NCBI RefSeq assembly: GCF_024281235.1
Contig: NZ_JAHWXY010000006.1
Coordinates: forward strand, 62,001-126,000
Length of the DNA stretch: 64,000 bases
Source of the DNA: Shinella daejeonensis
GTDB taxonomy: Bacteria > Pseudomonadota > Alphaproteobacteria > Rhizobiales > Rhizobiaceae
Direction: 5' to 3'
Every line of letters begins with the position of its first letter. Position 1 is the first letter of the stretch. The translations under genes and the position numbers were made by a program. Under the pieces are notes generated by a model. It was not told where the DNA came from, ran no database searches, and worked only from the letters and a program-made list of their open reading frames with translations. Shown piece after piece: positions 44,289 through 64,000 of this stretch.

Positions 44289-44298
44289 GCGCCGATCG

Positions 44299-46236: not shown

Positions 46237-46262
46237 TTCATCGGTCCGCGATTTTGCCGGTC

Positions 46263-46691: not shown

Positions 46692-46858
46692 GGGATCTCC
46701 TGGGGCGTCAGCGTTTGTAATGATGGGAAAATAGCAGTTTTCCACCGTTGCACTAGACTACCCCCCAGAAGACAGATCGTTCATATTTTCTGAACGATCC
46801 CGGCCGCTCGCATCCTCCGGATGGGGGAGGAAATGCGCAACGCCTTTTTGCGCGACGC

Positions 46859-47893: not shown

Positions 47894-48056
47894 GTCGTGA
47901 TGCTCCCTTGTTGCCGGCAGGCGGCGGTGCATTGCCTGTCGCACAGCCTGATATATCCGATCGAAAGCCGTTCCAACCGCTTTATACAGCCGTTCGGGAC
48001 GATATCGGGACCATGACGCCGTCGCAGAGACGGCCGGCAAGCGTCAGCGGACCGGC

Positions 48057-49313
48057 CTACCGGCCCACCATGCCATCGGCGGTGTTGCCGATGGAGCTGC
48101 CGAAACGGCGCCACTGGTCGTCATAGCCGCGGCGTGTCGCCGGGTCGAAGACGGCGATCGGCGTCGATACGGCGATGCTTGCCGCGCTGCCGACCGTCTG
48201 GGCCGCGCCGAGCGCCACGACGCCGAGCCGGTCACCGAAGCCGATCTCCGAATCCGTCACGGTCTGCCCGTCGATCAACCGGTTGCCGATCAGCCGCACG
48301 ACCTCCGGGCTTTCCGCGAATTTGCCGTGGTTCAGCCGGTCGCCGGATTTGAGTGCGGTGAGGTCGAGCACGGTTATGCCCTGCGCCTCAAGCAGCGATC
48401 GATAGGGTTCCTGCGACGGGTCGATCTGCCCCAGCCGGTCGACATTGCCGGAAAGACGCTTCGAAAGCGTCAGCGCCCGGTCGTCCCGTGAGACGAAGAT
48501 GGTAAACTTCGGCTTATCCTTGCCGAGCGCGTAAAGCTGCTGGCCGAAGACATCGACATCGAGGTCGGGCGACGCCAGGATGACCTGCTCGATCTTCTTC
48601 GGCACGCGGCCGTCGCGGATCGCCATCTGGCGCAACGTCTCGACAGCGAGCCATGTCCCCATGGAATGGGCCATGATGGTGATTTCCCCGACGTCCGGCG
48701 TGTCGATGGCGGCGCGTAGCAGGCTTTCCAGCGCATCACGCGAATAATTCGTGCTTTCCTTGTCGTAGGAATAATCGAAAATGCTGGCGCGGGAGGGCCA
48801 GGTGAAGATGATCGGCGCCGCATCGGTCTTCGAATCATGGACGATCTGGGTGAAACGGTAGACCGCATCCTCGTAGCGGTTGTTGAAACCATGCACGAAG
48901 ACCAGCACCCGCCCGCTCTTCGGCAGATGGCGGTCGAGCCATCCGCGTGCCGCCGGCACGTCCATCGGCTTGACGCTGACGGTTGTGAAATCCTTGAGCG
49001 GATCGGCCGGCAGCCGCGAGGGCCATTGCACCTGGCCGACCTTGCGGTTCTTTTCGGGCGGGACCGATACGACGATGTCGCTCAGCATCAGGCCGGAACC
49101 GCGCTCGCCGGAGAAAAGTACGCCCGGCTCCTCGGACGGCGCGCGGGTGGTGGCGACGAGCAGATCCACCGGGGATGCGCCTGACGCTACCTTTCCGTTG
49201 GGAACCAGCACGCCCTCCGGCCGACCGGCGCAGGATGCGAGCGAAAAGGCCGCCAGCAGAATCATCGCGCAGAACGCGCGCGACGCACCGGGGATCGTCC
49301 TGTCCCGCTTCAT
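48057..49313 (-). CDS. Lipoprotein alpha/beta hydrolase (DUF900 type)
   Basis: A 418-residue protein with a lipoprotein signal: hydrophobic AMILLAAFSLASC with lipobox LASC and Cys28. The hydrolase core has the oxyanion segment VFVHGFNNRYEDAVYRF and the nucleophile elbow MAHSMGTW (Ser217). DUF900 proteins are predicted serine hydrolases of unknown substrate, presumed envelope-anchored. It lies between the racemase-like gene and the GntR regulator and is not clearly in an operon with either. Confidence 0.87.
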   Translation of the reverse strand: MKRDRTIPGASRAFCAMILLAAFSLASCAGRPEGVLVPNGKVASGASPVDLLVATTRAPSEEPGVLFSGERGSGLMLSDIVVSVPPEKNRKVGQVQWPSRLPADPLKDFTTVSVKPMDVPAARGWLDRHLPKSGRVLVFVHGFNNRYEDAVYRFTQIVHDSKTDAAPIIFTWPSRASIFDYSYDKESTNYSRDALESLLRAAIDTPDVGEITIMAHSMGTWLAVETLRQMAIRDGRVPKKIEQVILASPDLDVDVFGQQLYALGKDKPKFTIFVSRDDRALTLSKRLSGNVDRLGQIDPSQEPYRSLLEAQGITVLDLTALKSGDRLNHGKFAESPEVVRLIGNRLIDGQTVTDSEIGFGDRLGVVALGAAQTVGSAASIAVSTPIAVFDPATRRGYDDQWRRFGSSIGNTADGMVGR

Positions 49314-49450
49314 ACGGCCTTCCCTTCATCGGTGCCGGCCGTCATGGCCGGGACATGCTTCTCCTTAGCCGAGCCGGCGGCGGTTTTGAAGGGGAACACC
49401 CGGCATGTCTTGGCGGGATCGGCCGGAAGAATGCGGACGTTGCGCTTCGG

Positions 49451-50182
49451 TCACGCCCCGACGATGCGTTCCCGCCCGACGCGGATGACATGTTCCATGG
49501 CGCGGCGAGCGCCGTCCTCGTCGCGGCGGCGGATTTCCTCGACGATACGCATATGCGACGCAGCCACCTCGCCGACGCGGATACGGTCGGCATTCGGCGA
49601 ACTCAGCTTGAATACGCCGACCAGCGCCGCCTCGATCAGGCTGCCGACCGTGCGCATGAAGGGGTTTGCCGCCGCATCCATGACGCTCAGGTGAAAACGC
49701 AGATCGGCCAGCGCCAGCGTCTCGGGCGTATGGGCGGGATCACCCATCGCTACGGCGAGATGCATCATCCGGCTGATATCCGCCTCCGAGGCGTTGCGCG
49801 CCGCCAGCGCCGCCGCATGGGGCTCGAAGCCCATGCGGATCTCGATCAGATGCAGCAGGAAGGCGGTATCGACCCCGACGGTGAAATGCCAGGTGAGGAT
49901 GTCGGCGTCGAACAGGTTCCACTGGTGCTTCGGCGTCACCCGCGTGCCGATACGCGCTCGCGGCACCACGAGCCCCTTGGCCGCCAGCGTCTTCATCGCC
50001 TCGCGCAGCACGGTGCGCGAAACCCGGAAGCGGGCCTCGAGTTCCGCATCGCCCGGAAGCGTCACGCCCACCGGAAACTCGCCGGCGACGATGGCCTTTC
50101 CAAGCGCACCGACGACCTGCCAATGGCTGGTGCGCCGGTCTGCCTTGCTCAACACCGCCGCCTGCCCCCTACCCGTCCACAT
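49451..50182 (-). CDS. GntR/FadR-family (FCD) transcriptional regulator
   Basis: A regulator of about 243 residues. The winged helix-turn-helix has GEFPVGVTLPGDAELEARF and VSRTVLREAMKTLAAKGLV; the C-terminal FCD domain has RMGFEPHAAALAARNAS, DLRFHLSVMDAAANPFM and a His-rich metal region ASHMRIVEEIRRRDED. FCD regulators often respond to sugar acids or small carboxylates. The ATG at 50182 has no strong ribosome site; a GTG at 50155 with GGGGG upstream is an alternative. It follows the ABC transporter genes on the same strand, so it probably controls them. Confidence 0.87.
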   Translation of the reverse strand: MWTGRGQAAVLSKADRRTSHWQVVGALGKAIVAGEFPVGVTLPGDAELEARFRVSRTVLREAMKTLAAKGLVVPRARIGTRVTPKHQWNLFDADILTWHFTVGVDTAFLLHLIEIRMGFEPHAAALAARNASEADISRMMHLAVAMGDPAHTPETLALADLRFHLSVMDAAANPFMRTVGSLIEAALVGVFKLSSPNADRIRVGEVAASHMRIVEEIRRRDEDGARRAMEHVIRVGRERIVGA

Positions 50183-50208
50183 CACCGTTCGTCCACACGC
50201 GATCTTGC

Positions 50209-51198
50209 CTATGATGCCGCCGGAACGGTTGCAGCGGCCCGCCGGCGGCGATCCGAAATATGGATCAGCCCTTTCTGAAGCAGAATGAAGGCGAAGAGCA
50301 GCAAGCCGATCAGGATCTTCGTCCACCAGCTCGAAAGCGAACCGTCGAAGGTGATATAGGTCTGGATCAGGCCCTGGATGAGAAGGCCGACGAGCGTTCC
50401 CGCGACAAAGCCGGAACCGCCGGTCAGCAGCGTGCCGCCGATGACCACGGCGGCGATCGCATCCAGCTCCACGCCGACCGTGGCGAGCGAATAGCCCGCC
50501 GAGGTATAGAGCGAGAAGACGATGCCCGCGAGCCCGGCCAGGAAGCCGGACAGCGCATAGATCGCCACGGTCGTGCGCCCCACCGGAACGCCCATCAACT
50601 GCGCCGTCGCAATATCGCCGCCCAGCGCATAGACATTCGCGCCGAAGCGGGTGCGATGGGCGATCAGCATGCCGGCCGCGAAGACGGCGAGCATCAATCC
50701 GCCGATCAGCGTGATGCGCCCGCCGCCGGGCAGCTTGTAGTAGAGGCCCTTGAGCGTCGCATAGAAGGGATGCCTGATCGGGATCGAATCGATCGACAGC
50801 ACGAAGGCCATGCCTCGCGCCAGGAACATGCCGGCAAGCGTCACGATGAAAGGCGGCATTTGCAGATGGTGGATGATCGCCCCCATCAGCGCACCGAAGG
50901 CGGTGGTGATGACGAGGGCGAGCCCGAAGGCGGCAAGGGGATGGATCGCCGTCGATTGCAGCAGAACGGCAAGGAAGACGCCGGTGAAGGCGATGACGGC
51001 GCCGACCGAAAGATCGATGCCGCCCGACAGGATGACGAAGGTCATGCCGACCGCCGCGATCCCCAGGAAGGCGTTGTCGGTCAGGAGGTTGCCGATCACC
51101 CGCGTCGACAGCATGTTGGGATATTGCAGGTAGCAGACGAGATAGGCGAGCAGGAAGATCGCAACCGTCGCGGCGAGGGGAAAATAGCGCGGGTTCAT
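50209..51198 (-). CDS. yjfF: Sugar ABC transporter permease YjfF-like
   Basis: A 329-residue BPD_transp_2-type permease with about ten helices, starting MNPRYFPLAATVAIFLLAYL. The motifs GMTFVILSGGIDLSVGAVIA and AVVIGGTLLTGGSGFVAGTL are the family signature. E. coli YjfF pairs with YtfT to import galactofuranose. Its ATG overlaps the ytfT-like stop by four bases. It is the last transporter gene, followed by the GntR regulator. Confidence 0.9.
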   Translation of the reverse strand: MNPRYFPLAATVAIFLLAYLVCYLQYPNMLSTRVIGNLLTDNAFLGIAAVGMTFVILSGGIDLSVGAVIAFTGVFLAVLLQSTAIHPLAAFGLALVITTAFGALMGAIIHHLQMPPFIVTLAGMFLARGMAFVLSIDSIPIRHPFYATLKGLYYKLPGGGRITLIGGLMLAVFAAGMLIAHRTRFGANVYALGGDIATAQLMGVPVGRTTVAIYALSGFLAGLAGIVFSLYTSAGYSLATVGVELDAIAAVVIGGTLLTGGSGFVAGTLVGLLIQGLIQTYITFDGSLSSWWTKILIGLLLFAFILLQKGLIHISDRRRRAAATVPAAS

Positions 51199-52250
51199 TT
51201 CGCCTCCTGTCCGGTTCCGGCCCGGTCGGCGCGATCCTGTCCGGCGCCGTCCGCCGCTCCGCGCGAGCGCGACAGCCATGCGAAAACGGTCCGGGCGCGC
51301 GGCGACTGGATGACAAGGATCAGCACGATGATCGCCGCCTTGATGATGAGATTGAACTCGGGCGGAAAGCCGGACAACAGGATGCCGGTATTGATCGCCT
51401 GGATGATCATCGCGCCGATGAGCGAGGCGGCGATGCTGAAGCGCCCGCCGAGCAACGAGGTGCCGCCGATCACGACCGCGAGAATGGCGTCGAGTTCCAG
51501 CCAGAGACCGGCATTGTTTGCGTCGGCTCCCCGGATATCGGCGGCCGCGATGATGCCGGCGACCGCCGCGCAAAGGCCCGAAAGCATATAGGCGGCGATC
51601 AGCAATACGCCCGTGGAAACGCCGGATAGTGTAGAGGCGCGCCGGTTGATACCGAGCGCCTCGATCAGCATGCCCAGAGCGGTACGCCGCACGAGGAGAG
51701 CGACGACGATCCCGAAGGCCAGCCAGATCACCACCGGCATGGGCAGGCCGAAGAGCGATCCGCTGCCGATGAAGATCAGCCCCGGATCGTTGAAGGTGAG
51801 GATCGCGCCCTCGGTGATGAGCTGGGCGATGCCGCGTCCGGCCACCATCAGCACCAGTGTCGCGATGATCGGCTGGATATCGAGCACGGCCACCAGGACG
51901 CCGTTCCACAGGCCGCAGAGAACGCCCGCGCCGAGCGTGACGAGAAGCGTCACGGCCAGCGAATGCCCGGAGGTGATGCAGGCGGCCGCCACCGCGCCGC
52001 AGATCGCCATGACCGCGCCGACCGAAAGATCGATGCCCTTGGTGGCGATGACCACCGTCATGCCGATCGCCAGCAGCGCCACCGGCGCACCGCGGTTGAG
52101 GATATCGACGAGACTGCCGTAAAGCCGGCCGTTCTGGATCTCCAGCCGGAAGAAGTCCGGAAAGGCGAAGGAAATCATCAGCAGGATGACCGCAAGCGCG
52201 GCCACCTGCGGCAGCAGGCGAAGCACATGAAGGCTGAGAAAGCGGCTCAT
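51195..52250 (-). CDS. ytfT: Sugar ABC transporter permease YtfT-like
   Basis: A 351-residue permease, MSRFLSLHVLRLLPQVAALA at the start, with GMTVVIATKGIDLSVGAVMA and AVVIGGTSLLGGRFSIAASL as signatures. A charged C-terminal tail follows the last helix. It would form the channel with the YjfF-like protein. The ATG overlaps the ATPase stop by four bases, and the stop overlaps the next start, so the transporter genes are strictly coupled. Confidence 0.9.
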   Translation of the reverse strand: MSRFLSLHVLRLLPQVAALAVILLMISFAFPDFFRLEIQNGRLYGSLVDILNRGAPVALLAIGMTVVIATKGIDLSVGAVMAICGAVAAACITSGHSLAVTLLVTLGAGVLCGLWNGVLVAVLDIQPIIATLVLMVAGRGIAQLITEGAILTFNDPGLIFIGSGSLFGLPMPVVIWLAFGIVVALLVRRTALGMLIEALGINRRASTLSGVSTGVLLIAAYMLSGLCAAVAGIIAAADIRGADANNAGLWLELDAILAVVIGGTSLLGGRFSIAASLIGAMIIQAINTGILLSGFPPEFNLIIKAAIIVLILVIQSPRARTVFAWLSRSRGAADGAGQDRADRAGTGQEAK

Positions 52251-53794
52251 GCCTGCGCCCTCTCCGTGGCGGCGATGGCCTCGACGATGGCCGCCGTCGT
52301 CACCCGTTCGCCGCTCAGTTCGGCCACATGGGCACGGTCCCGCAACACGATGACCCGGCTCGAATAGGCCACGAGTTCCTCCAGTTCGGAGGAGATGACG
52401 ATAAGGGACATGCCGTTCTCGCAAAGGGATTCGATGAGACGGATGATTTCCGCATGCGCCCCCACATCGATGCCGCGCGTCGGCTCGTCGAGGATCAGAA
52501 AATCCGGATTGGTGGCAAGCCAGCGGGCGAGGATGACTTTCTGCTGGTTGCCGCCGGAAAGAAGCCGGATCGGCTTTTCCCGGTCGGTGGTGCGGATGTC
52601 GAGCGCCTTGATGTAGTGATCGGCGAGCCGGTCCTGTTCCGCGCGGCCGAGCGGGCGCGCCCAGCCGCGCCGGGCCTGGAGCGCAAGGGCGATATTCTCG
52701 CGCACCGACAGGTCGCCGACGATGCCGTCGACCTTCCGGTCCTCCGGGCAGAAACCGAATTTCTCGCGGATCGCCGCGCGCGGCGAGGACAGATCGAGCC
52801 GCCGGCCGCCGGCCTCCGCCGTGCCGCTGTCGGCGCGCTCCGCCCCGAACAGGATCTCCGCCGTTTCCGTGCGGCCCGAGCCCAGCAGGCCGGCGACGCC
52901 GACCACCTCGCCGGCCCTGACGTCGAGGTCGAAGGGCCGGATGCGGCCGCTGCGGCCATAATTGCGGAAGCGGAAGCGCACCTCGCCGGCCCCCGCGGCG
53001 GCACGGCCGTGGGCATCATCCGCCGCATCCGCGAGTTCGCGGCCGAGCATCATCGCGATAAGGTCGCGGCGTGACAGTCCGGCGGCCTCCTGCGTGCCGA
53101 CGAGGCGGCCGTTGCGCAGCACGGTGATACGGTCGGCAATCTCGTAGACCTGCTCGAGAAAATGCGTGATGAAGACGATGCCGAGACCCCGATCGCGCAG
53201 ACGGCGCACGATGCGGAACAGCATCGCCACCTCATGCGCATCGAGACTGGCGGTCGGCTCGTCGAGGATCAGCACCTTGCCGGAAAGATCGACCGCGCGC
53301 GCGATGGCCACCACCTGCTGCACGGCGACGGAATACCCTGAAAGCCCGGCTGCGACATCGATGTCCAGGTCGTATTGCGCCAGCAGCACCCGGGCGCGGC
53401 GATTCATCTCCCGCGTGTCGACGAGGCCGAAGCGACGCGGTTGCCGGCCGAGAAAGAGGTTTTCCGCGACGGTGAGGTTCGGCAGGAGGTTCACCTCCTG
53501 ATAGACCGTTCCGATGCCCAGGTTCTGCGCCTCCAGCGTATCGCGGGGATCGACCTCCACGCCGTCAAGGACGATGCGGCCGGCATTGCGCCGATAGGCG
53601 CCCGTCAGGCATTTCACGAGCGTGGATTTTCCCGCGCCGTTCTCTCCGAGCAGGGCGTGCACCTCGCCTCGCCGCAAGGAGAAATCGACCTGATCGAGCG
53701 CCTTGGCGCCGGGAAAGCTCTTGTCGATCCCCGTCGCCGCAAGAACAAGAGGATTGTCCGACTGCATGATCGCGACCTGTCTGTCGTTAGCCAT
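52247..53794 (-). CDS. ytfR: Sugar ABC transporter ATP-binding protein YtfR-like (two ABC domains)
   Basis: A tandem ABC ATPase of about 515 residues. The first domain has Walker A GENGAGKST and Walker B KVLILDEPTASLD; the second has the degenerate GLLGSGRTE, an intact LSGGNQQKVILARW signature and FLILDEPTRGIDVGAHAEII. The sequence is close to E. coli YtfR, including GIGTVYQEVNLLPNLTVAEN. Starts at 53794 (MANDRQ) and 53767 (MQSDNP) are both possible. It is energised in the cytosol for the two permeases. Confidence 0.92.
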   Translation of the reverse strand: MANDRQVAIMQSDNPLVLAATGIDKSFPGAKALDQVDFSLRRGEVHALLGENGAGKSTLVKCLTGAYRRNAGRIVLDGVEVDPRDTLEAQNLGIGTVYQEVNLLPNLTVAENLFLGRQPRRFGLVDTREMNRRARVLLAQYDLDIDVAAGLSGYSVAVQQVVAIARAVDLSGKVLILDEPTASLDAHEVAMLFRIVRRLRDRGLGIVFITHFLEQVYEIADRITVLRNGRLVGTQEAAGLSRRDLIAMMLGRELADAADDAHGRAAAGAGEVRFRFRNYGRSGRIRPFDLDVRAGEVVGVAGLLGSGRTETAEILFGAERADSGTAEAGGRRLDLSSPRAAIREKFGFCPEDRKVDGIVGDLSVRENIALALQARRGWARPLGRAEQDRLADHYIKALDIRTTDREKPIRLLSGGNQQKVILARWLATNPDFLILDEPTRGIDVGAHAEIIRLIESLCENGMSLIVISSELEELVAYSSRVIVLRDRAHVAELSGERVTTAAIVEAIAATERAQA

Positions 53795-53901
53795 TCGTCC
53801 CGAAGAAACAGGCGGGGACGAAACGGAAGCCACAACGCCCCTCGCAAGGCGATGCGGCCGGGACGGCCGCCGCGCACCGGGCACGCGGCGGCCTCTCAGG
53901 A

Positions 53902-54864
53902 TCAGTAGCCGAGGCCCTTCTTCTCTTCGTAGACCTTCATCGGATCGTCGGCCTGCGTATAGAGTTTGGATTCGGTCTGGATCCACTTCGGGGGAGCCGT
54001 TCCGTCCTTGCGATAGGCATCGAGGGCGTCGAAGGCGGGGCCTGCCATATTCGGCGTCAGTTCGACCGTGGCATTGGCTTCGCCTGCGGCCATGGCTTCG
54101 AAGATGTCCGGCACCGCATCGATGGAGACGACGAGAATGTCCGTGCCCGGCTTCAGGCCCGCTTCCTTGATCGCCTGAATGGCGCCGACGGCCATGTCGT
54201 CGTTATGGGCGTAAAGCGCACAGATGTTCTTTCCGCCGTCTTCCGCCTTGAGGAAGCTCTCCATGACCTCCTTGCCCTTGGTGCGGGTGAAGTCGCCGGT
54301 CTGGCTGCGGATGATCTTCAGGTTGTCATGGCTTTCCAGCGCCTGCTCGAAACCCTTCTTGCGGTCGATGGCCGGCGAGGAGCCGGTGGTGCCCTGAAGT
54401 TCGACGACATTGCACGGCTTGCCTGCCACCGTATCGGCCAGCCACTGGCCGGCGACGTTGCCCTCATGAACGAGGTCGGAGGTGATGGCCGTCAGATAGA
54501 GATCGTCAGCGGCATCGACGGTACGGTCAAGCAGGACGACGGGAATTTCCGCCTCTTTCGCTTCCTGCAACACCTCGTCCCAGCCGGTCGCGACAACCGG
54601 CGCCAGCAGGATGGCATCCACCCCTTGAGCGATGAAGGACCGCAGGGCCTTGATCTGATTTTCCTGTTTCTGCTGGGCGTCGGCGAACTTCAGGTCGATG
54701 CCGCGCTCTTCGGCCTGCTGCTTGGTCAGCGTCGTCTCGGCGGCGCGCCAGCCGGACTCGGATCCGATCTGCGAGAAGCCGACCGTCATTTCCGCAGCCG
54801 CAGCAGCGCTGAAAAACGAGACGGCAAGAACTGTGGCACCGGCAAGTGCGGCTTTGATTGTCAT
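53902..54864 (-). CDS. ytfQ: Sugar-binding protein YtfQ-like (galactofuranose type)
   Basis: A 320-residue periplasmic protein with a signal peptide (AALAGATVLAVSFFSAAAAA). The mature part MTVGFSQIGSESGWRAAETT, PCNVVELQGTTGSSPAIDRK and ICALYAHNDDMAVGAIQAIK resembles E. coli YtfQ closely. That protein binds galactofuranose; the ligand here is inferred. GGGAGG precedes the ATG, and the AT-rich promoter lies upstream. It is the first gene of ytfQ-R-T-yjfF. Confidence 0.92.
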   Translation of the reverse strand: MTIKAALAGATVLAVSFFSAAAAAEMTVGFSQIGSESGWRAAETTLTKQQAEERGIDLKFADAQQKQENQIKALRSFIAQGVDAILLAPVVATGWDEVLQEAKEAEIPVVLLDRTVDAADDLYLTAITSDLVHEGNVAGQWLADTVAGKPCNVVELQGTTGSSPAIDRKKGFEQALESHDNLKIIRSQTGDFTRTKGKEVMESFLKAEDGGKNICALYAHNDDMAVGAIQAIKEAGLKPGTDILVVSIDAVPDIFEAMAAGEANATVELTPNMAGPAFDALDAYRKDGTAPPKWIQTESKLYTQADDPMKVYEEKKGLGY

Positions 54865-55199
54865 GATGTCCTCCCAAAGAAAGCTGCCGCTCGGCAGCAG
54901 GAGAAAAACATCATATTATATTACTATTGTAAACCGTAAATTTTAGCCGTCTCTTTCCTCGCGGACCAAAGCTCCGGGCCCGGCCGGAACCGTCAAGGGA
55001 ACGCCGATCCGGCCGCGCCGCGCCGCCGGCACATAAACCCGATGAACACTTGCAATAAGGGGATTTCATTGTCTATTAGCGAAAACGCTCGACCGGCAGC
55101 CCGGACAATCCGTTTTTCCGGGAGGGAAAACCGGGCAGATATTCCACAGCGTGACGCTCCGGCACCGGCAAGCTATGGCGAGAGATTGACAGACCGAGT
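54865..55199. promoter_or_regulatory. Divergent region between ytfQ and the GT14 gene
   Basis: No gene is seen. Positions 54911-54945 are strikingly AT-rich (ATATTATATTACTATTGTAA) and probably hold the ytfQ promoter and GntR operator. The rest is GC-rich with no clear element. Confidence 0.45.
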
Positions 55200-56894
55200 A
55201 TGCGAGTCCTTTTTCTGATCCTTGCCCACCATGAGCCGCAGCAACTCGCCGAACTTGCGCAAACTCTGGTATCGGCGGGCAGTAACGCGGAGGCGCTGAT
55301 CCATTTCGACGGCAACGCCCGGCGCGAGGATTTTGAGCTTCTGGAAAAAGCCACCGCCCATTCCGACCGCATCCGGCTCGTGCGGGAGCGCATCGCTTGC
55401 AAATGGGGCGACTACAGCCTCGTGCAAGCCGTCATAAACGGCCTTTGCGATGCGCGCGCATCGTCCCGGGAGTACGATTATGTCGTTCTCCTGAGCGGTT
55501 CCTGCCTGCCATGCCGCCCGATCCGGCAACTGGAGCGCTATCTTCACGAACACAACGGCACGGAATTCATCGAGGCGTGCGATGAAACCTGGATAACCGG
55601 CGGCCTGCGCCGCGAGCGCCACGAGTTCTACTACCCGGTGCCGGCCTCTCCGACCAAAAGCAGGATCGAGAATTCCATCGTCGCCCTGCAACGCCGCCTG
55701 AAAATCAAGCGGAAGGCGCCAGCGGGCCTCGACGTCAAATTCGGCTCCCAATGGTGGGGCCTGACCTGGCAAACATGCCTGAAGCTTCTGGATTTCATGG
55801 CGGAAAATCCGTCAGTCGAAGCCTTCTTCCGCAAGACCTACATACCGGATGAAATGGTCTTCCCGACGATCGTCAACCATCTGGCCGCCCCAAGGGTCGG
55901 CGGTTTCGGGCTGACGTTCTTCCAGTTCACCAATTTCGGCAAACCCGTCACCTTTTACGACGACCACCGGAATTATCCCTTCACGCTCGACAGGTTCTTC
56001 TTTCGCAAGGCCTCCAGCGAAGCGGTGAACCTGCGCCGGACGGCGCTTGCGATAGCGCGCGCGGCAGATGGCGGCGAGGATCTCTCCGGCATCGGACGGC
56101 CGAACACCGATTACCGGATCAGGATCGACGCCCAGATCAACCACCCCGTGCCGGGGCAGATCTTCTACCGCGATCAGTTCTGCGACGTGAACGCCGCGAT
56201 GGTGCGGCGGCTGGCAAGACCCTATGTGATCGTTTGCGGGCCGCCATCGCAGGTCGACACCGTCCTGTCCGCGCTCGATCCCCGAATTTTCGAGACGTTC
56301 GGGCGGCTGTACAAAGCGGGCGATATCGATTTCGGCAAGGGACGGAGCACATTCGGCGGTCTCCGGCGGAACGGCGTCCACATACGCGACATGCATCCCT
56401 TTCTCTTTCTGGTCAGGATTCTTCAGAGAACCGACAAGATCCCCGTATTGTCATGGGCGCCCGGAGATTGCCGCCGGATGCTGGAGGGCGCAATCGACGA
56501 TCCGAATGCCCTGGTCATCTCCCTGCCGCCGATCGGGCGCAGCGCGAAGGAAAGCGCGGACCGGTGGCGACAATCCATATCCGCTCCCTGCCGGCAAGGG
56601 GATGGGAAGCCGTCATCGGATCCGAACGTCACGCAACCGCAGCCCCCCGTCCCCATCCATGCCGCATTGTTGTCAGGCATCGGCGGCCATTACGACGCCC
56701 GCGTGCTGGCATGCCCCCGGCCCCGTGACGCGACACCGGCCGAGATGCAGGCGTGCGCCGACATATACCGCCAGAGCTTCACGAGGCTGAAGCATCGGTC
56801 GTCGGCCTGGCTTACCCATATCCATGAAACGCTGGCGTCGCTGACAGCAGGGGAGACCGGCGACCGACCGGAAAAACATGGAGGAAATCCATGA
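55200..56894 (+). CDS. GT14-type (core-2/I-branching-like) glycosyltransferase with C-terminal extra domain
   Basis: A 564-residue protein. The first about 270 residues match bacterial core-2/I-branching beta-1,6-N-acetylglucosaminyltransferases: MRVLFLILAHHEPQQLAELA, DYVVLLSGSCLPCRPI, FGSQWWGLTWQTC and TYIPDEMVFPTIVNHL. The rest (about 300-500) is a separate domain, with RPYVIVCGPPSQVDTVLSAL resembling the nucleotide-binding start of a transferase, of unknown role. It would add branches to a cell-surface glycan, in the cytosol or at the inner membrane. The stop overlaps the next ATG by four bases. Confidence 0.78.
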   Translation: MRVLFLILAHHEPQQLAELAQTLVSAGSNAEALIHFDGNARREDFELLEKATAHSDRIRLVRERIACKWGDYSLVQAVINGLCDARASSREYDYVVLLSGSCLPCRPIRQLERYLHEHNGTEFIEACDETWITGGLRRERHEFYYPVPASPTKSRIENSIVALQRRLKIKRKAPAGLDVKFGSQWWGLTWQTCLKLLDFMAENPSVEAFFRKTYIPDEMVFPTIVNHLAAPRVGGFGLTFFQFTNFGKPVTFYDDHRNYPFTLDRFFFRKASSEAVNLRRTALAIARAADGGEDLSGIGRPNTDYRIRIDAQINHPVPGQIFYRDQFCDVNAAMVRRLARPYVIVCGPPSQVDTVLSALDPRIFETFGRLYKAGDIDFGKGRSTFGGLRRNGVHIRDMHPFLFLVRILQRTDKIPVLSWAPGDCRRMLEGAIDDPNALVISLPPIGRSAKESADRWRQSISAPCRQGDGKPSSDPNVTQPQPPVPIHAALLSGIGGHYDARVLACPRPRDATPAEMQACADIYRQSFTRLKHRSSAWLTHIHETLASLTAGETGDRPEKHGGNP

Positions 56895-57904
56895 AACTCC
56901 TGAAAAAGATTTCAAAGGAAATCTCCGACTTTTATCTGTACTTCCGGCTTTTCCTCGAAGACCGCCTGGCGGGCCGGAGCCTGACCCTCGTTCAGGACAG
57001 ATTGGGCGCGATAAGGAAACGGGACATTCTTCTCGTCTCGTGCCTGCGGAACGAACGCTTCCGCATGCCGGCCTTCGTCGACTACTATCGCAAGCTGGGC
57101 GTCAGCCATTTCCTGTTCGTGGACAACGACTCCACGGACGGCTTCATGGACTGGGCCGGAACGCAGGAGGACGTGACGGTCTGGCACACCGCGGCAAGCT
57201 ACCGGGATGCGAAATTCGGGATGCTCTGGCTCAACGACATCCTGCGGCGGCATTGCCGCGGCCACTGGTGCGTGGTCGTCGATCCGGACGAATTTCTCGT
57301 CTATCCCTATATGGAGACCCGAAGCCTCGCCGCGCTGACCCAGTTTCTCGACGAGGAAAAACGTCCCTGCATGCATACGCTGATGCTGGACGCCTATGGC
57401 AAGGGCCCGCTGGAGGAAAGCCTCCTTGCGGAAGGGCAGGATCCGTTCGAAGTCTGCCCCTATTTCGACAAGGACGGCTATTTGCAGGTCCCGAGCTGGG
57501 GGCATTCCACCTGGATTCGCGGCGGACCGCGGCTACGCGTGCATTTCGCCGAAAATCCCGACGAGGCGCCGGCGCTCAACAAGGTCCCGCTGATCAAGTG
57601 GCGCTTCCACTATCACTACAATATGTCCATGCATGACGCGCGGCCCTTCTACCTGAACCGCGCCCATCGGATCGGCAACGTATCGACCTCGGGCGTGCTG
57701 TTCCATTTCAAGATGGTTTCCTCCCTCATCGCCAAGGCGGAGGAGGAAAGCCAGCGCAAGGAACACTATGCGGACGGCCGGGAATACGACCGGTATCTGG
57801 CGGCCGAACAGGTTAGCTTCTACGAGCCGGGGATCAGTTGCCGTTACGAGAGGCCCGGACAACTCGTCGCGCTCGGGCTGATGTCTCCCGGGCAATGGTT
57901 CTAG
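56891..57904 (+). CDS. GT2/GT92-like glycosyltransferase
   Basis: A 337-residue enzyme of the Glyco_tranf_2_4 / GT92 (DUF23-like) type. ILLVSCLRNERFRMPAFVDY, HFLFVDNDSTDGFMDW and the metal motif VVVDPDEFLVYP (Asp131-Asp133) are clear, followed by RFHYHYNMSMHDARPFYLNR. The acceptor and sugar are unknown. It is translationally coupled to the GT14 gene, so they probably build one glycan. A shorter RIME-like repeat follows its stop. Confidence 0.82.
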   Translation: MKLLKKISKEISDFYLYFRLFLEDRLAGRSLTLVQDRLGAIRKRDILLVSCLRNERFRMPAFVDYYRKLGVSHFLFVDNDSTDGFMDWAGTQEDVTVWHTAASYRDAKFGMLWLNDILRRHCRGHWCVVVDPDEFLVYPYMETRSLAALTQFLDEEKRPCMHTLMLDAYGKGPLEESLLAEGQDPFEVCPYFDKDGYLQVPSWGHSTWIRGGPRLRVHFAENPDEAPALNKVPLIKWRFHYHYNMSMHDARPFYLNRAHRIGNVSTSGVLFHFKMVSSLIAKAEEESQRKEHYADGREYDRYLAAEQVSFYEPGISCRYERPGQLVALGLMSPGQWF

Positions 57905-57964
57905 AGCGGTTCCGGTTTTCACAGAATCGGTAGAAACCGGTTCCCGTTGCGCCGGAAACGCTCC
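57903..57964. repeat. RIME-like rhizobial intergenic repeat, short copy
   Basis: AGAGCGGTTCCGGTTTTCAC, then AGAATCGGTAGAAACCGG and GCCGGAAACGCTCC. It has both ends of the repeat at 23265 but lacks about 40 central bases. It sits between two convergent genes. Confidence 0.65.
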
Positions 57965-57976
57965 AGCCGCGCCTGC

Positions 57977-58873
57977 CTATCCGGCCAGCAAGGGGCGCTC
58001 AACTTTCGGGGGGATAAGCCAGAGAGCGCTGTCGAGCGCGGCGCAATCCTCCTCATAGGCCTTGCCCAGGCTCTTCCGTTTTTCGTCGGACCAGGGCGCG
58101 AAACCGTCGAATCCTTCGGATTTCAGCAGCTTGTTGCCGATCACATTGATGAGCAGGCCGGCGACATCGGGGCCTTTCTGCGCATCGATCAGGTCAAGCA
58201 CATCGATGGCCATCTGCGAGAAGGATTCCCGTTCCGGCTTGTCCTGGGTTTTCGCCACCACAGGAACCGGGGTTCCGAACGCCATATCCTGCAATATGCG
58301 ATCGGAATGCTCGCGGAAATCTTCATACCGCCAGATTTTCGTTCGATCGGGACGGAGCCCTTTGATAAGCCGGTCGAGAACCGATGGCCACCTCAACGCC
58401 TCGAATCGCAGATGCTCGACGAAAGCGTCGAAAGACAGGAATTTCCGTCTGAAGCGCAGGGTTTCGCAATAGGCTGAGGCGAGGAAGGAATCGTAGGATC
58501 GGATACAGCAGTAAAGCGTGATATCCGCATCGGGGAAAAGCGCCCTCACCCGGCTCAACCTCCCCTTTCCCGTGTCGAAGGGCTCGCCGCTTGCAAGGAT
58601 GCGGGCGCAATTGCCGATCAGGTTCTCGTCCGACAGGATCAACCGGTCGAGGGGACCGTGGGGGACGCCCTCGAAGACCTGCGCCGCGAGATCGCCGATC
58701 CGGAAATCCCCCGGCTCGATGTCCTTGAGGCGCGACGTGAAGGCCTTCCTGAAGGGGTCTCGCGGCATATAATCGATACCGGATTTCATCAGGTCGGGAC
58801 GCGCGACCTCAAGCCGCTTCTGCATGTATGTCGTTGCGGTCTTGTGTACCCCGACGTGAAAATTGATCTTCAT
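57977..58873 (-). CDS. Sulfotransferase-like protein
   Basis: A 298-residue protein. The N-terminus MKINFHVGVHKTATTYMQKR carries HKTATT (residues 10-15), the phosphate-binding 5'-loop of sulfotransferase-like P-loop proteins; LILSDENLIGN and ITLYCCIRSYDSFLASAYCE match the second region (IRxxxxxxxS, PAPS 3'-phosphate). It would transfer sulfate from PAPS to a carbohydrate or lipid. A glycosyltransferase gene is convergent and a second sulfotransferase gene upstream. The ATG at 58873 is favoured by AGG upstream. Confidence 0.72.
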   Translation of the reverse strand: MKINFHVGVHKTATTYMQKRLEVARPDLMKSGIDYMPRDPFRKAFTSRLKDIEPGDFRIGDLAAQVFEGVPHGPLDRLILSDENLIGNCARILASGEPFDTGKGRLSRVRALFPDADITLYCCIRSYDSFLASAYCETLRFRRKFLSFDAFVEHLRFEALRWPSVLDRLIKGLRPDRTKIWRYEDFREHSDRILQDMAFGTPVPVVAKTQDKPERESFSQMAIDVLDLIDAQKGPDVAGLLINVIGNKLLKSEGFDGFAPWSDEKRKSLGKAYEEDCAALDSALWLIPPKVERPLLAG

Positions 58874-59099
58874 CCTATCAACCTTATCGAACCGGTTTCC
58901 CACGCGAGGCATCGCGATGGCCATCACGATCTCCCCGGCGCAGCGGCAGGTTCTACCAGCCGCCTCGAGATATCGGATTTTGCATTGGCATTTGTCGCAA
59001 TATTGTCAACCCGAAAAGGACGCTGCCGGGCGACCCGTTCACGGATTGCGCCAGTCCGGCTTCCGGCTTGCACGGGCGGCCTTTCTCATCGGCTATCGC

Positions 59100-59795
59100 T
59101 CAGATGGAATAGGCGAAGTTCTCCAGATCGGTTGCATAAATCTGCTTGCCGAGATCACGGATACGGTCCGTCAGCACCTCTTCATAGGCGAACTTGCTTT
59201 TCGGGCCTTCGTTGAAACGCGGAAACGGGATCGTCGTGGCGCCGGTACGCTTCATGACGAACTCCATGTCCTGATCCATCGTTTCGACGCGTCCGATGAA
59301 ATCGAGCGTCCTGAACCGCAGCGCATCGTTGATGATCACCGTTTGCGGAATCCAGTGCCAGTCCAGCCGGAAATCGACCGTTTTGCGTTGCGTGTCGCGG
59401 ACGAGATTGAGAAACGCCAGAAAATCCGCCCGACATTCCTCCAGGCTTTCGTTGCGCAGGGAAGCGCCGTATCTGTTCTTCAACAGGACCTGCGCATCGC
59501 CGAATGCATATTGGCTTTGATGCAAGATCTTCTCGTTGAACAGCGAATAGGCCCGCTTCAGCGGATGCCGCACCAGCGTGAATACAAAAGAACGACGAAG
59601 CGCCTCATAGACTTTCGATCTGTTGTTGTCGAAATGAATCAGTCGCGACTGCTCGATCTTATGGATATCGAGAGGCTTTTCCGGGTAACGGCCGTGCTCC
59701 AGATGGTACATCCAGTTCTTGACCGATGTGCATCCGGCTTTCGGGACGCTGAGATAGACGAAATCGAATTTGGAGGATGCTATAAATGCCGGCAT
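59100..59795 (-). CDS. Carbohydrate sulfotransferase (family 2)
   Basis: A 231-residue protein of the sulfotransferase-2 type. The 5'-phosphosulfate loop is SVPKAGCTSVKNWMYHLE (VPKAGCTS, 17-24) and the 3'-phosphate loop is FTLVRHPLKRAYSLFNEK (Arg76 to Ser84), both in canonical order. Such enzymes sulfate sugar chains. The ATG at 59795 has AGGGA and AGGG upstream; the preceding TTG is weaker. Its base composition is noticeably lower in GC than the rest of the window, hinting at surface-polysaccharide genes that move between strains. Confidence 0.82.
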   Translation of the reverse strand: MPAFIASSKFDFVYLSVPKAGCTSVKNWMYHLEHGRYPEKPLDIHKIEQSRLIHFDNNRSKVYEALRRSFVFTLVRHPLKRAYSLFNEKILHQSQYAFGDAQVLLKNRYGASLRNESLEECRADFLAFLNLVRDTQRKTVDFRLDWHWIPQTVIINDALRFRTLDFIGRVETMDQDMEFVMKRTGATTIPFPRFNEGPKSKFAYEEVLTDRIRDLGKQIYATDLENFAYSI

Positions 59796-59933
59796 GCCCT
59801 GTCCCTGTTTTTCAACATCCAATCTGATCGACGACAGAAAGGCAAGTCCCGCAGAACGCCATCCGTTGCATCAATCTTCCCGCTTTCCACGACAAGGCAC
59901 CCACCGGAAACCCGTCGAAGACATCACCACGTT

Positions 59934-60989
59934 TCATTCGCTGCGGGTGGGCGTCCGGCCGCGATATCGGGCCAGCAGTCCGTGGGCGAGATTCTCCTTG
60001 TTGCGCCGATAGAATTTCCGGATCTTCGTCACCTGGACGTCCACGAAGCGGTAAGCTCTATAGAGAGGAAAGGAGCCGAGGCTCGCCACGCGTTCGCGCA
60101 AGCTGCGTTTCGGCGGATCCATCAGGCGATCGTATATCGCAAGCGTCCGGACGATTTCCAGTAGGAAGCGGCCTTCCGAACCTGCCGGAACCCGCCCCCC
60201 GTTATGCAGCGTGGCGAACATCTGCTTGCGGGAATAATTGCGCAACTCTCTCGCATAGTTCACCGCCAGATCCGCCTCGCGCGAGAGGATTTCGGCAATC
60301 CGGCGGTGCTGCCGGATCGCATCGAAGTGCCTTATGTCGGTCGATCGCAGGATCGAACCCGGCCTTTGCCGATACAGCACCAGAACATCGGGAATGACAT
60401 ATATGGATGCGGCGCGCATGATGCATTCGGCATTCCAGACGATATCTTCATAGTAGCAGGTCGGAAAGTTCAGGTTTCCCTGCATTACGAAGCTGCGCGC
60501 ATAGACCTTGTTCCAGGCGACGCCGAAGTTCTGAAGCAAATGCCGGCGTTCGGGTACGCTGTTGCGGGCTCCCTGCTCCAGCCATTTGGTGAATCTGTTC
60601 GGCTCCTTCCGGCCGTCCATGTAAAGGCGCGAGAAATTGATCATCAGTATGTCGGGCGTTTCCCGTCCGATATGGCTTGCGATCACGGGCAGCGCGTCGG
60701 GCGTCAGCAAATCGTCCCCGTCGACAAAGATATAGTAATCGCCCGCGGCCGCTCGCATGCCCTGGTTCCGTCCCTCGCCAAGGCCGAGATTCTCCTTGTT
60801 TTCGATGACGGTGAAAAGATGCGGATGGCGGACCGTCACACGCCGGATCGCGTCGAGCGTTCCGTCGGTCGATGCATTGTAAACGACGATCACCTCATAA
60901 TCGCCCCGGCCCGGAAAAATACAGCTCTCCAGACAGTCTCCGATGAAGGCCTCGATATTATAGGCGACGACGATGATCGAGTATTTCAT
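59934..60989 (-). CDS. GT2 family glycosyltransferase
   Basis: A 351-residue GT-A enzyme. SIIVVAYNIEAFIGDCLESC, VVYNASTDGTLDAI, GLGEGRNQGMRAAAGDYYIF and the metal motif VDGDD (Asp90-Asp92) define GT2. The C-terminal part (CYYEDIVWNAECIMRA then YRQRPGSILRS) resembles capsule and exopolysaccharide transferases. The sugar is unknown. The ATG at 60989 is the start of the domain. The TauE/SafE gene lies 79 bases upstream on the same strand. Confidence 0.88.
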   Translation of the reverse strand: MKYSIIVVAYNIEAFIGDCLESCIFPGRGDYEVIVVYNASTDGTLDAIRRVTVRHPHLFTVIENKENLGLGEGRNQGMRAAAGDYYIFVDGDDLLTPDALPVIASHIGRETPDILMINFSRLYMDGRKEPNRFTKWLEQGARNSVPERRHLLQNFGVAWNKVYARSFVMQGNLNFPTCYYEDIVWNAECIMRAASIYVIPDVLVLYRQRPGSILRSTDIRHFDAIRQHRRIAEILSREADLAVNYARELRNYSRKQMFATLHNGGRVPAGSEGRFLLEIVRTLAIYDRLMDPPKRSLRERVASLGSFPLYRAYRFVDVQVTKIRKFYRRNKENLAHGLLARYRGRTPTRSE

Positions 60990-61068
60990 CTGCCGCAGTC
61001 TCCAGTCACGAACGCCCTCTTTCTGTTCTTCCCCGCCGCGCCGGCCGGAAGGCGGCATTACGCCATAT

Positions 61069-61860
61069 CTAGGAGGCTAGCACGAGTTTCAGGCCGACGA
61101 CCGCAAGAACCAGCGCAAGAACGGGACGGATGAACCGATCGGAAACGGACACCGCGATAAGGCTGCCGATGATGATGCCCGGTATGGAGCCCACCAGCAA
61201 CGATCCGAGCATGCCCCAATCGACGCCGCCCATGACCCAATAGCCGATGCCGCTGATCAGCGTCAGCGGGACGGCATGGGCGATATCGGAGCCGATGATG
61301 TCGGTCAGGCGCAGGCGCGGATAGAGAAACAGCATCAGCGTGACGCCGAGCGCGCCGGCGCCGACCGAGGTCAGCGTCACCAGCGCACCGAGGATGAAGC
61401 CCAGGATGATCGCCGGCCCGGGATAATCCTGAGGCAGGCGCTTCCTCTGCGCCGGCCGCTGCATGCGCCCCATCATCATCACCAGCCTGTCGCGGAACAT
61501 CAAAAGCAGGGACGTCAGCAGAAGCGTACAGCCAAGCGTGGTCATGATCAGGCTGGCGATCCCGTCGTCCGGCTTTCCGGTGGTGGAGATCAGCAGGATC
61601 GTCAGGAGCGCGCCAGGAATGCTTCCCAGGGCCAGAAAGCGCACGATCTTCCAGTTCACGGTCTGTTTGCGGCCATGAACGATCGTACCGACAGATTTGG
61701 TGATGGCCGCATAAAGCAGATCGGTGCCGACGGCGGTAACCGGATGAACGCCGAAGAGCAATACCAGGATCGGCGTCATGAGAGAGCCGCCCCCCACGCC
61801 GGTGATACCGACGAAAGCGCCGACAAACAGACCCGATATCGAGTAGTGCCAATCAATCAA
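61069..61860 (-). CDS. TauE/SafE family sulfite/anion exporter
   Basis: A 263-residue membrane protein with about eight helices. The two repeats show GAFVGITGVGGGSLMTPILV and GFILGALVTLTSVGAGALGV, the family signature. Members export sulfite, sulfoacetate or other organosulfur anions. The start is TTG at 61860, nine bases after the cysQ stop. Its position directly after cysNC-cysQ makes a sulfur-oxyanion export role likely. Confidence 0.87.
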   Translation of the reverse strand: MIDWHYSISGLFVGAFVGITGVGGGSLMTPILVLLFGVHPVTAVGTDLLYAAITKSVGTIVHGRKQTVNWKIVRFLALGSIPGALLTILLISTTGKPDDGIASLIMTTLGCTLLLTSLLLMFRDRLVMMMGRMQRPAQRKRLPQDYPGPAIILGFILGALVTLTSVGAGALGVTLMLFLYPRLRLTDIIGSDIAHAVPLTLISGIGYWVMGGVDWGMLGSLLVGSIPGIIIGSLIAVSVSDRFIRPVLALVLAVVGLKLVLAS

Positions 61861-61869
61861 GGCGTTCGA

Positions 61870-62673
61870 TCACCTGTTCGCCGGCCGTGTCCTGGCGTGC
61901 CCCCAGCAGATGAAGTGCGGATTGGCGAAGTCGGCGTCGTCGGGCTGGTCGATCTTCCCATAGACAAACAGCGATCCGTCCACCTTCACCGTCGCGCCGC
62001 CCGCGGCCCGCAGAACCGCGTCTCCCGCCGCCGTGTCCCATTCCATCGTCCGGCCGAAACGGGGATAGACATCGGCCGCCCCTTCCGCGACAAGGCAGAA
62101 CTTCAGGGAGGAGCCTATGGACGTGTTTTCCTCGATGCCGTTTTCTGCAAGAAACGCCATGGTCTCCGGATTGTTATGCGAGCGGCTCGCCACAGCGACG
62201 AGGCGGCCGGCCGGCGTGCGGCATCCGATCGGCTGCCGTGCGACGACGACGCCGTCTTGCGAGACCGTGAGCTTCTCCGCCCCTGTCTCCGCCCCGACGT
62301 AGGCGACCCCCTGCGCCGGCGCATAGACGACGCCGGCTACCGGGATGCCGTTTTCCACAAGCGCGATATTCACGGTGAAATCCGGCCGGCGGTTGATGAA
62401 CTCCTTGGTCCCGTCGAGCGGATCGACGAGAATGAAGGCGTTTCCGTGAAGCTGCGGCACGCGGCCGGCGGCGACCTCTTCCTCCGCAACGACCGGGATA
62501 TCCGGAAACAGCGCCGCAAGCTCCCTGAGGATCAGCGCTTCGGCCCGCTCGTCGGCCTCGGTCACCGGCGACCGGTCGTCCTTGAAGCCGACGGCGATCT
62601 CGCCATTATAGACGTCCATGATGACGCGGCCGGCGGCGATCGCGATCCGCTCGAAATTTTCCAGAAAATCCAC
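61870..62673 (-). CDS. cysQ: 3'(2'),5'-bisphosphate nucleotidase CysQ
   Basis: A 267-residue inositol-monophosphatase-fold enzyme. The metal motifs are VVAEEEVAAG, VDPLDGTKEFINRRPDF (DPLDGT) and MEWDTAAGDAVLRAAGG. It hydrolyses PAP, the product left after sulfate transfer, to AMP, and so keeps sulfotransferases and PAPS reductase from being inhibited. The start is GTG at 62673, one base after the cysNC stop and with AGGA upstream. Confidence 0.92.
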   Translation of the reverse strand: MDFLENFERIAIAAGRVIMDVYNGEIAVGFKDDRSPVTEADERAEALILRELAALFPDIPVVAEEEVAAGRVPQLHGNAFILVDPLDGTKEFINRRPDFTVNIALVENGIPVAGVVYAPAQGVAYVGAETGAEKLTVSQDGVVVARQPIGCRTPAGRLVAVASRSHNNPETMAFLAENGIEENTSIGSSLKFCLVAEGAADVYPRFGRTMEWDTAAGDAVLRAAGGATVKVDGSLFVYGKIDQPDDADFANPHFICWGHARTRPANR

Positions 62674-62674
62674 G

Positions 62675-64000
62675 TCAGTCCTCACCCTGCTCATGCAGAA
62701 AGTCGACGATCCTGACGGCAAGATCCTGCGGCGTATGGCCAACCGTGTGCAGATGGATTTCCGGGTTTTCCGGCCGTTCATAGGGAGAACTGATGCCGGT
62801 GAAATTCGCGATCTCGCCGGCTGCGGCCTTGCGGTAAAGCCCCTTCGGGTCGCGCTTCGCACATTCCTCGATCGGCGTGTCGACGAAAATCTCGAAGAAT
62901 TCCCCGTCCTCCAGCATCTCGCGAGCAAGGCGACGCTCCGAACGGAACGGCGAGATGAAGGACACCAGCACGATCAGGCCCGCATCCACCATCAGCCTGG
63001 CCACTTCCGCGACACGCCGGATGTTCTCCACCCGGTCTTCCTGGGTGAAGCCGAGGTCCCGGTTGAGGCCATGGCGCACATTGTCGCCGTCCAGCATGTA
63101 GGTATGCCTGCCGCGGGCGTGAAGCAGTTTCTCCACGCCGTTGGCGATCGTCGACTTGCCGGACCCGGAAAAACCGGTGAACCAGAGGACGGCCGGTTTC
63201 TGGTGCTTCAGTTCCGCGCGGGCCTTCTTGTGGACGTCCGTCGCCTGCCATTGCACATTGTCCGCCCGCCGCAGCGCAAAATCGATCATCCCCGCTCCAA
63301 GCGTGGCATTCGAATAGCGGTCGATAATGACGAAATTGCCCGTGGATCGGTTGTGCTTATAGGGATCGAAGGCGATGGGCGCCTGCAACGAGATATTGCA
63401 GACTCCGACGCCGTTCATCGGCAGCGACTTGACGGCTTCCTGGGCGAACGTATTGACGTCGATCTCGTGCTTCAGCGCGGTTATCGTACAATTCACGCTG
63501 TCTGTTTCGGTGCGCAGGATGTAGCTGCGCCCCGGCAGCAGGGGATTGGCGTCGAACCAGATGAGATGCGCCTGCAACTGATCGGTGACCTGCGGAGCGT
63601 CGGCCGGCGCCACGAGCATGTTGCCCCGCGAGACCTCTACCTGGTCTTCGAGGACGAGCGTGACCGCCTGCCCTTCGACCGCCTCGCGAAGATTTCCGCC
63701 ATGGGTGACGATTTCCTTGATCTTCGAGACCTGCCGGGACTTGGCGACCATGACCTCGTCACCGACGGCGATCCGGCCGGAGGAGACCTGGCCGGCGAAG
63801 CCGCGGAAATTCAGGTTCGGGCGATTGACGTATTGCACGGGAAAGCGGAACGGTCTGTCAAGCGCCCCGTCCTCGATCGGCACGCTCTCCAGATGTTCCA
63901 GAAGAGCCGGTCCGTCATACCACGGCATCTGCTCCGACCGGGTCGTGATATTGTCGCCGAAGCGCGCCGATAGCGGGATCGGCAGGATCGTCTCGAAACC
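62675..64000 (-). CDS. cysNC: Bifunctional sulfate adenylyltransferase subunit 1 / APS kinase CysNC (5' part outside the window)
   Basis: The frame is open to position 64000, so the N-terminal GTPase part is missing; 441 residues are present. The first part matches CysN domains 2 and 3 ([40 protein letters not shown]). APS kinase follows, with Walker [32 protein letters not shown] and [14 protein letters not shown]. It makes APS and then PAPS. Similar fusions include NodQ. It is the first seen gene of cysNC-cysQ-tauE; cysD would be expected beyond the window. Confidence 0.94.

Follow-up and report, generated by a model that had tools for sequence, protein, structure and literature searches.

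A putative acquired sulfation module with its own PAPS supply in Shinella daejeonensis

The window analysed here is a stretch of 64,000 nucleotides from the soil bacterium Shinella daejeonensis (contig C34, positions 62001-126000), whose genome comprises 4.66 Mb in 37 contigs. Genes A-H, at window positions 55200-64000, encode glycosyltransferases, sulfotransferase-like proteins, a permease and enzymes of sulfate activation. The row continues past the window edge, in the overlapping stretch L015, with the remainder of cysNC, with cysD and with a third sulfotransferase gene, J. We examined these genes as a candidate sulfation module supplied with 3'-phosphoadenosine 5'-phosphosulfate (PAPS), which is formed from adenosine 5'-phosphosulfate (APS) by APS kinase. 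The genes are as follows.

55200-56894, plus strand: A, GT14-type glycosyltransferase; Branch (PF02485), E 1.4e-14, 54.7 bits against a cut-off of 23.4
56891-57904, plus strand: B, GT2-type glycosyltransferase; Glyco_tranf_2_4 (PF13704), E 1.5e-30
57977-58873, minus strand: C, sulfotransferase-like, of a family without a Pfam match; profile comparison
59100-59822, minus strand: D, carbohydrate sulfotransferase; Sulfotransfer_2 (PF03567), E 1.3e-26, 94.8 bits against a cut-off of 22
59934-60989, minus strand: E, GT2 glycosyltransferase; PF00535, E 1.2e-26
61069-61860, minus strand: F, TauE/SafE-type permease, TTG start; PF01925, E 5.7e-46, 157.5 bits against a cut-off of 32.6
61870-62673, minus strand: G, CysQ, 3'(2'),5'-bisphosphate nucleotidase, GTG start; TIGR01331, E 7.8e-91, 304.1 bits against 228.8
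62675-64000, minus strand: H, CysNC, fusion of the ATP sulfurylase large subunit and APS kinase; the window holds the C-terminal 441 of 633 amino acids
L015:12676-14577, minus strand: complete cysNC, 633 amino acids; NF004035, 1049.1 bits against a cut-off of 715
L015:14577-15476, minus strand: cysD, beyond the window, overlapping cysNC
L015:16002-16943, minus strand: J, third sulfotransferase, beyond cysD; PF03567, 38.2 bits against a cut-off of 22

Genes A-H are long open frames, and all of them except C exceed the curated cut-offs of family models. The start of E at 60989 is our choice; a longer frame would begin at 61058. Towards A, the minus-strand genes follow in the order J, cysD, cysNC, cysQ, tauE, E, D, C. 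One base separates the stop of cysNC from cysQ and nine bases separate cysQ from tauE, in agreement with the tight cysNC-cysQ-tauE operon proposed in an earlier note on the window; that cysD might lie directly beyond the window edge, as the note also considered, is indeed the case. The genes from cysD to tauE form a tight operon. Further on, the spacing grows to 79 bases at E (counted to its likely start), 111 at D and 226 at C, which makes these three only probable members of it. On the plus strand, A and B overlap by 4 bases.

Searches of the genome with CysNC and with its APS kinase part retrieved a sole APS kinase, the one contained in this CysNC. A second CysN, 49% identical, covers the ATP sulfurylase part only, without the APS kinase part; it is grouped with cysD, with cysH directly upstream, on another contig. 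CysH of this second locus passes the threshold of the APS reductase model TIGR02055 (259.3 bits, threshold 235.3). It falls short of the PAPS reductase model TIGR02057 (145.3 bits where 254.2 are required) and clears the broad model NF002537, named phosphoadenylyl-sulfate reductase, with 253.1 bits (threshold 154). The separate cysH-cysD-cysN group has no APS kinase, and the scores favour an APS reductase for its CysH, so PAPS is probably not required for making cysteine. The PAPS genes at the module are additional to the cysteine route: the APS kinase and ATP sulfurylase genes adjoin sulfotransferase genes, and the glycan assembly genes A, B and E lie in the same locus. Two more Sulfotransfer_3 genes are found elsewhere in the genome (L116, C31:429541-430188; L117, C11:95667-96326); their products would draw on the PAPS made by the module.

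Relatives were surveyed in 200 genomes besides our own (201 in total) and in plasmid records. With the APS kinase part as query, 141 of the 201 genomes gave a match, yet only 5 of the 21 belonging to this genus. A match at E 1e-30 or better was missing in 16 of 20 congeners, so PAPS seems dispensable in the genus; 15 candidates were scored per genome and some genomes had more, which makes this absence less than absolute. PF03567 matches lie within 15 kb of an APS kinase in 10 of 84 cases (49 genomes with APS kinase) against 0.59 expected, or in 8 against 0.58 when our own genome is excluded; the expected numbers (Poisson) ignore kinship (G100 and G199 are of one genus) and contig breaks. The count considers PF03567 only, with PF13469 unused, and omits the second piece of one G073 frame.

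Gene calls in several of the relatives' loci came from a base-composition heuristic and some are misframed; our conclusions are based on named matches or, where so stated, on judgement by eye. In the congener G006, cysD, cysNC, cysQ and tauE occur in the same order (90.6, 84.4, 76.1 and 71.9% identity), followed by a C-family gene. In G004, a Capsule_synth gene and a large glycosyltransferase gene come after cysNC, and frames with similar starts come after cysNC in G009 and G018 (by eye). The latter two carry A-B on the cysNC contig, about 13 kb away in G009 and about 31 kb in G018. Three Shinella plasmids each carry cysDNC, a GT14 and GT2 pair and a sulfotransferase gene, about 20 kb apart in one and about 45-55 kb in another. 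Within about 32 kb, pShin-11 of Shinella sp. HZN7 (100.6 kb) holds A-B, cysDNC, a sulfotransferase gene and genes for capsule and rhamnose. On the WSC3-e plasmid (143.6 kb), cysDNC adjoins a capsule gene and rhamnose genes, and A-B together with a sulfotransferase gene lies about 45-55 kb away round the circle; the plasmid of WSD5-1, nearly equal to it in length, has a cysDNC match and A-B with a sulfotransferase gene. In G143, which belongs to another genus, C, A, B and a Sulfotransfer_3 gene stand in a row, with a second Sulfotransfer_3-like gene one gene on (26.1 bits, just below the cut-off of 27) and cysNC on another contig. The kit is conserved in kind, with sulfotransferases that differ each time.

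Over C34:116 kb-155 kb, G+C drops from about 0.65 to 0.45-0.63, and genes for a relaxase, a type IV secretion system coupling protein, a resolvase and an integrase are located to the right of the module. The region was probably acquired. Judging from gene content and linkage, we consider it quite probable that it constitutes an acquired sulfation module, in which PAPS would be made locally and its sulfate passed to a glycan. That the module has its own PAPS supply, as the earlier note put forward, is well supported by the sole APS kinase, the other cys locus with its APS reductase and the linkage in relatives.

A competing explanation is that cysDNC-cysQ-tauE is a sulfate-assimilation operon serving cysteine synthesis and that the sulfotransferase and glycosyltransferase genes are unrelated cargo of the same acquired region. 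The low G+C of C34:116-155 kb and the mobility genes make unrelated neighbours possible, APS kinase is widespread in the relatives (141 of 201, as above), and 74 of the 84 PF03567 matches lie more than 15 kb from APS kinase or on another contig. However, with cysH-cysD-cysN the genome already has a route through an APS reductase, to which an APS kinase should contribute nothing as regards cysteine, and PF03567 is enriched beside cysNC in relatives even with our own genome excluded. Moreover, the four congeners having cysNC all carry it beside glycan or sulfotransferase-like genes; profiles show this for G004 and G006, and likeness to G004 and to Shinella plasmids with annotation indicates it for G009 and G018. 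An operon for cysteine with chance neighbours is thus very improbable, and we return to the sulfation module.

Comparable kits are known from marine bacteria. Cobetia marina is a marine bacterium of another class. The capsule cluster of its strain KMM 1449 includes an operon with fused cysN/cysC, cysD, cysQ and a sulfate permease, the same cluster contains sulfotransferases and glycosyltransferases, and the structure of the sulfated capsule has been established (PMC11766843). As far as the available part of that paper describes it, this cluster has cysNC, cysD, cysQ, a permease, sulfotransferases and glycosyltransferases in common with the module. It differs in comprising about 70 genes with kps export, kpsSC and wcb operons, and the same part of the paper mentions no GT14-type enzyme; there its permease is called a sulfate permease, of unstated family, whereas that of the module belongs to the TauE/SafE family. 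In Vibrio sp. KMM 8419, second copies of cysC, cysN and cysD occur in a polysaccharide cluster with three sulfotransferase genes, and the authors regard PAPS genes together with sulfotransferases as a hallmark of sulfated polysaccharide synthesis (PMC11641403). In the excerpt of that paper, the cluster differs from the module in its 80 genes, its ATP-binding cassette (ABC) export and a cysC named apart from cysN. In rhizobia, NodPQ activates sulfate besides CysDN, and PAPS serves sulfation, CysH preferring APS; sulfation covers Nod factors (through NodH) and, in S. meliloti and M. loti, surface polysaccharides, and an M. loti nodPQ mutant makes no sulfated polysaccharide (PMC6192434). This resembles the module in a PAPS supply separate from the cysteine route and differs in that the accessible part of the text mentions neither a GT14-GT2 pair nor a TauE gene. 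By analogy, the module is of a known kind, that of PAPS genes with sulfotransferases for sulfated capsules. The earlier note did not recognise the combination as described; the kits published for sulfated capsules (PMC11766843, PMC11641403), as seen in part, speak against its being new.

The earlier note had also seen two sulfotransferase-like genes in the window, one with clear PAPS loops; this is borne out for D by its PF03567 match and conserved residues, and suggested for C by its profile. In D, K28, R85 and S93 are invariant over nine aligned sequences, D included; we take K28 to be the 5' lysine, and R85 and S93 the 3' arginine and serine, of the PAPS site. As a single sequence D matches no solved structure; the profile of its family (nine sequences including D) matches the structure of heparan sulfate 6-O-sulfotransferase 3 at 5.1e-7. 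A relative of J, 41.5% identical, lies near glf, pyruvyl transferase and rfbC genes in Paroceanicella.

No Pfam model matches C above its cut-off. Residues G8, H10, T12, T14, T15, Q18, R125 and S133 are among the invariant columns of C and six relatives. In hhalign, the profile of these sequences matched a set of eight sulfotransferases, chosen by Pfam match or annotation, at 83% (E 8.6e-6). The alignment extends over 112 columns with 12% identity in the 3'-phosphate-binding region and is in register over R125 and S133. The same profile reached 9.6% with the PF03567 set and 0.1-0.6% with five control sets (APS kinase, CysQ, CysD, TauE and B); these two sulfotransferase sets, both accepted as such, reached 47.6% with each other. 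Among solved structures the C profile matched no sulfotransferase; matches to three designed or fusion proteins (E 0.37 to 1.2) were dismissed. An AlphaFold2 model of C from the single sequence (pLDDT 35.6) was too poor for library comparison. Relatives of C were found in 3 of 101 genomes with the single sequence, own included, and in 34 of 201 with the profile, four of whose own rows (G000, G031, G059, G143) are included. In G143, Phaeobacter sp. G2 and strain SC52, they lie within 9 kb of Pfam-matched or annotated sulfotransferases. The G006 gene (C16:4912-5850) is tied to the family by hhalign at 96.8% and by a local hmmsearch with the C profile (E 2.6e-10 over the full sequence and 1.3e-5 in its best stretch); the profile survey at 1e-5 did not return it. 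In G031 (L090:3101-6284), about 15 kb from cysDNC, a C-type gene adjoins two frames, one resembling by eye a CMP-sialic-acid-type synthetase and the other a NeuB-type synthase.

C could also be a different P-loop-type enzyme, leaving sulfation to D and J. This would agree with the lack of an above-cut-off Pfam match, with the absence of a solved-structure match for the profile, with the unusable AlphaFold2 model and with the behaviour of the G006 member, which taken singly gives no match to the two sulfotransferase sets (1.0% and 0.5%). Such an identity is nevertheless improbable given the in-register profile match over R125 and S133, absent in the five control sets, and the proximity of C relatives to sulfotransferases in the three genomes named. 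On profile evidence, C is very probably a sulfotransferase.

We next consider the glycosyltransferases. The Branch domain of A covers residues 5-227; the C-terminal part is weakly similar to DUF5927 (E 0.01, below the cut-off). Matches to A occur in 5 of 201 genomes, own included. As a single sequence, A matches neither xylosyltransferase 1 nor C2GnT among solved structures; the profile of A and nine relatives matches xylosyltransferase 1 at E 6.4e-19 and C2GnT at E 2.2e-4 and 0.003. A predicted model of A with two relatives (pLDDT 42.0) was too poor for library comparison. In all ten rows, residue 218 of A is Glu; it occupies the alignment position of the glutamate in PDE (C2GnT) and in PAE (xylosyltransferase) and is presumably the catalytic residue. 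The Branch family spans branching GlcNAc-transferases and xylosyltransferases, and xylosyltransferase 1 acts on protein. Because the A profile is far closer to xylosyltransferase 1, neither an assignment of A as a branching beta-1,6-GlcNAc-transferase of the C2GnT type nor the branching role given to it in the earlier note is supported. Of the three glycosyltransferases listed there, GT14 (PF02485) and GT2 (PF00535) are retained; the GT92 identity of B (E 0.046, below the cut-off) gives way to Glyco_tranf_2_4.

Outside Rhodobacterales, every one of the 11 opened A loci has a B-like gene next to A: our own, L017, L018, G009, G018, G143, G123, HZN7, WSC3-e, WSD5-1 and R. tropici. For WSC3-e and WSD5-1 this is by annotation. 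G018, WSC3-e and WSD5-1 are close kin, and G018 and Shinella sp. WSC3-e have almost the same A protein (rows L120, L131). No B-like gene was found beside A in the opened Rhodobacterales loci. In Paracoccus and Pseudorhodobacter plasmid records, a D-like gene is located within 200 bases of the A-like gene in 7 of 7 among the matches listed, which for A-like genes are the best 20 of 27; three of the seven records were opened. Ten plasmid records have D-like genes, and those of Gloeothece, Octadecabacter and P. pantotrophus (H89) are not among the A-like matches listed. In the opened records (L128, L174, L175) the two genes are direct, divergent neighbours; D-like identity in these genera is 27-30%. 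The likeness to our locus thus consists in adjacent A-like and D-like families; the difference is that none of cysDNC, B, C and E was found in the opened regions and that the C-terminal domain of the one Pfam-scanned GT14 protein is DUF5928. This protein is from Paracoccus sp. SMMA_5_TC (L128:8031-10572). There the GT14-Sulfotransfer_2 pair has rpmF on one side and a histidine-triad gene on the other, and the annotation of the 19 kb opened around it lists no polysaccharide genes. Our literature search found no paper on DUF5927 or DUF5928, nor one describing the function of a GT14-sulfotransferase pair. This partnership, common to the module and Rhodobacterales, is the unexplained part.

The product could be a small glycolipid, a Nod-factor-like molecule or a protein-linked glycan instead of a surface polysaccharide. 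No polymer export genes are recognised between A and cysD, the Paracoccus sp. SMMA_5_TC pair stands apart from annotated polysaccharide genes, and the profile of A is nearest to an enzyme that acts on protein. On the other hand, A-B shares Shinella plasmids with capsule or rhamnose genes and occurs near frames resembling O-antigen or ABC-export genes in Pseudochrobactrum, Ochrobactrum, R. tropici and G123 (mostly by eye). We hold such a product to be possible, if unlikely, and favour a surface glycan. Near A-B in L017, a pyruvyl transferase gene was identified by Pfam. A further proposal is that the GT14-sulfotransferase pair is an old alphaproteobacterial unit, stand-alone in Paracoccus and joined here to a PAPS kit. 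It would make a proteoglycan-like product: the xylosyltransferase-like enzyme would start or extend a glycan on protein or lipid, and Sulfotransfer_2 and C-type enzymes, the latter of a family without a Pfam model, would sulfate it. We regard this proposal as doubtful.

A relative of F, 72% identical, occupies the same place in the G006 operon. Relatives of F occur in 18 of the 201 genomes. Leaving aside our own and G006, the APS kinase is encoded on a different contig or 577 kb or more away in 13 of them, and no APS kinase match was obtained in 3. The earlier note had suggested that the TauE protein exports sulfur anions. Since F adjoins cysQ and the published Cobetia operon has a sulfate permease, import of sulfate by F appears likelier than export.

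In the proposed pathway, F would most likely bring sulfate in, and CysD with CysNC would convert it in the cytoplasm to APS and then PAPS. D, C and J would transfer sulfate onto a glycan that A (GT14-type), its partner B and E (GT2) help to assemble, and CysQ would hydrolyse leftover PAP (adenosine 3',5'-bisphosphate). We infer that the acceptor is a surface glycan on whose sugars the three sulfotransferases would act, and that F works inwards.

Several points weigh against this pathway. The linkage that the earlier note envisaged in other genomes recurs for sulfotransferase genes and cysNC, but the complete gene set occurs in none of the 200 others (A in four of them). The link of TauE to cysNC rests on two congeners, because the other relatives of F are in genomes whose APS kinase lies elsewhere or gave no match. 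Matches to D were found in 8 of 101 genomes, own included, the others at 23-31% identity (best-scoring 29%). C is placed by profile alone, and the G006 member of its family by itself gives no match to the sulfotransferase sets. A and B converge on the opposite-strand C and possibly form a unit of their own. Among the frames from window position 55200 to L015:16943, the part of the genome searched for them, we recognised no gene for a polymerase, a flippase or export, so neither the glycan nor its path to the surface is established.

To our knowledge, few alphaproteobacteria other than legume symbionts have sulfated glycans of known chemistry. The locus offers a testable case in Rhizobiaceae of PAPS synthesis genetically separate from cysteine synthesis; loss of cysNC should therefore abolish all sulfated glycans without auxotrophy. 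The recurring GT14-sulfotransferase pair and the sulfotransferase-like family without a Pfam match are of interest for making sulfated sugars.

Within the low-G+C region, a 14-base repeat of the tRNA-Arg end occurs at C34:145,705 and 154,565 with an integrase gene between. One copy lies about 150 bases before the tyrosine integrase gene and the other inside tRNA-Arg. Fourteen other repeats of 14-15 bases look like chance, and it is its place that distinguishes the tRNA-Arg repeat. The repeats delimit a possible small integrated element of about 9 kb with the integrase inside (L124:5705-14578, C34:145705-154578). An integrase-bounded island enclosing the whole module was not confirmed: the surroundings of the left edge of the low-G+C region yielded no third repeat copy, which places the module outside the 9-kb element. 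The best plasmid DNA matches of window positions 44000-64000 are to Shinella, 84.5% over 5.5 kb, at a sugar ABC transporter. This transporter (window 49473-54943) lies to the left of the module and is probably unrelated to it; its Shinella plasmid counterparts are annotated as a galactofuranose transporter (ytfQ, ytfR, yjfF).

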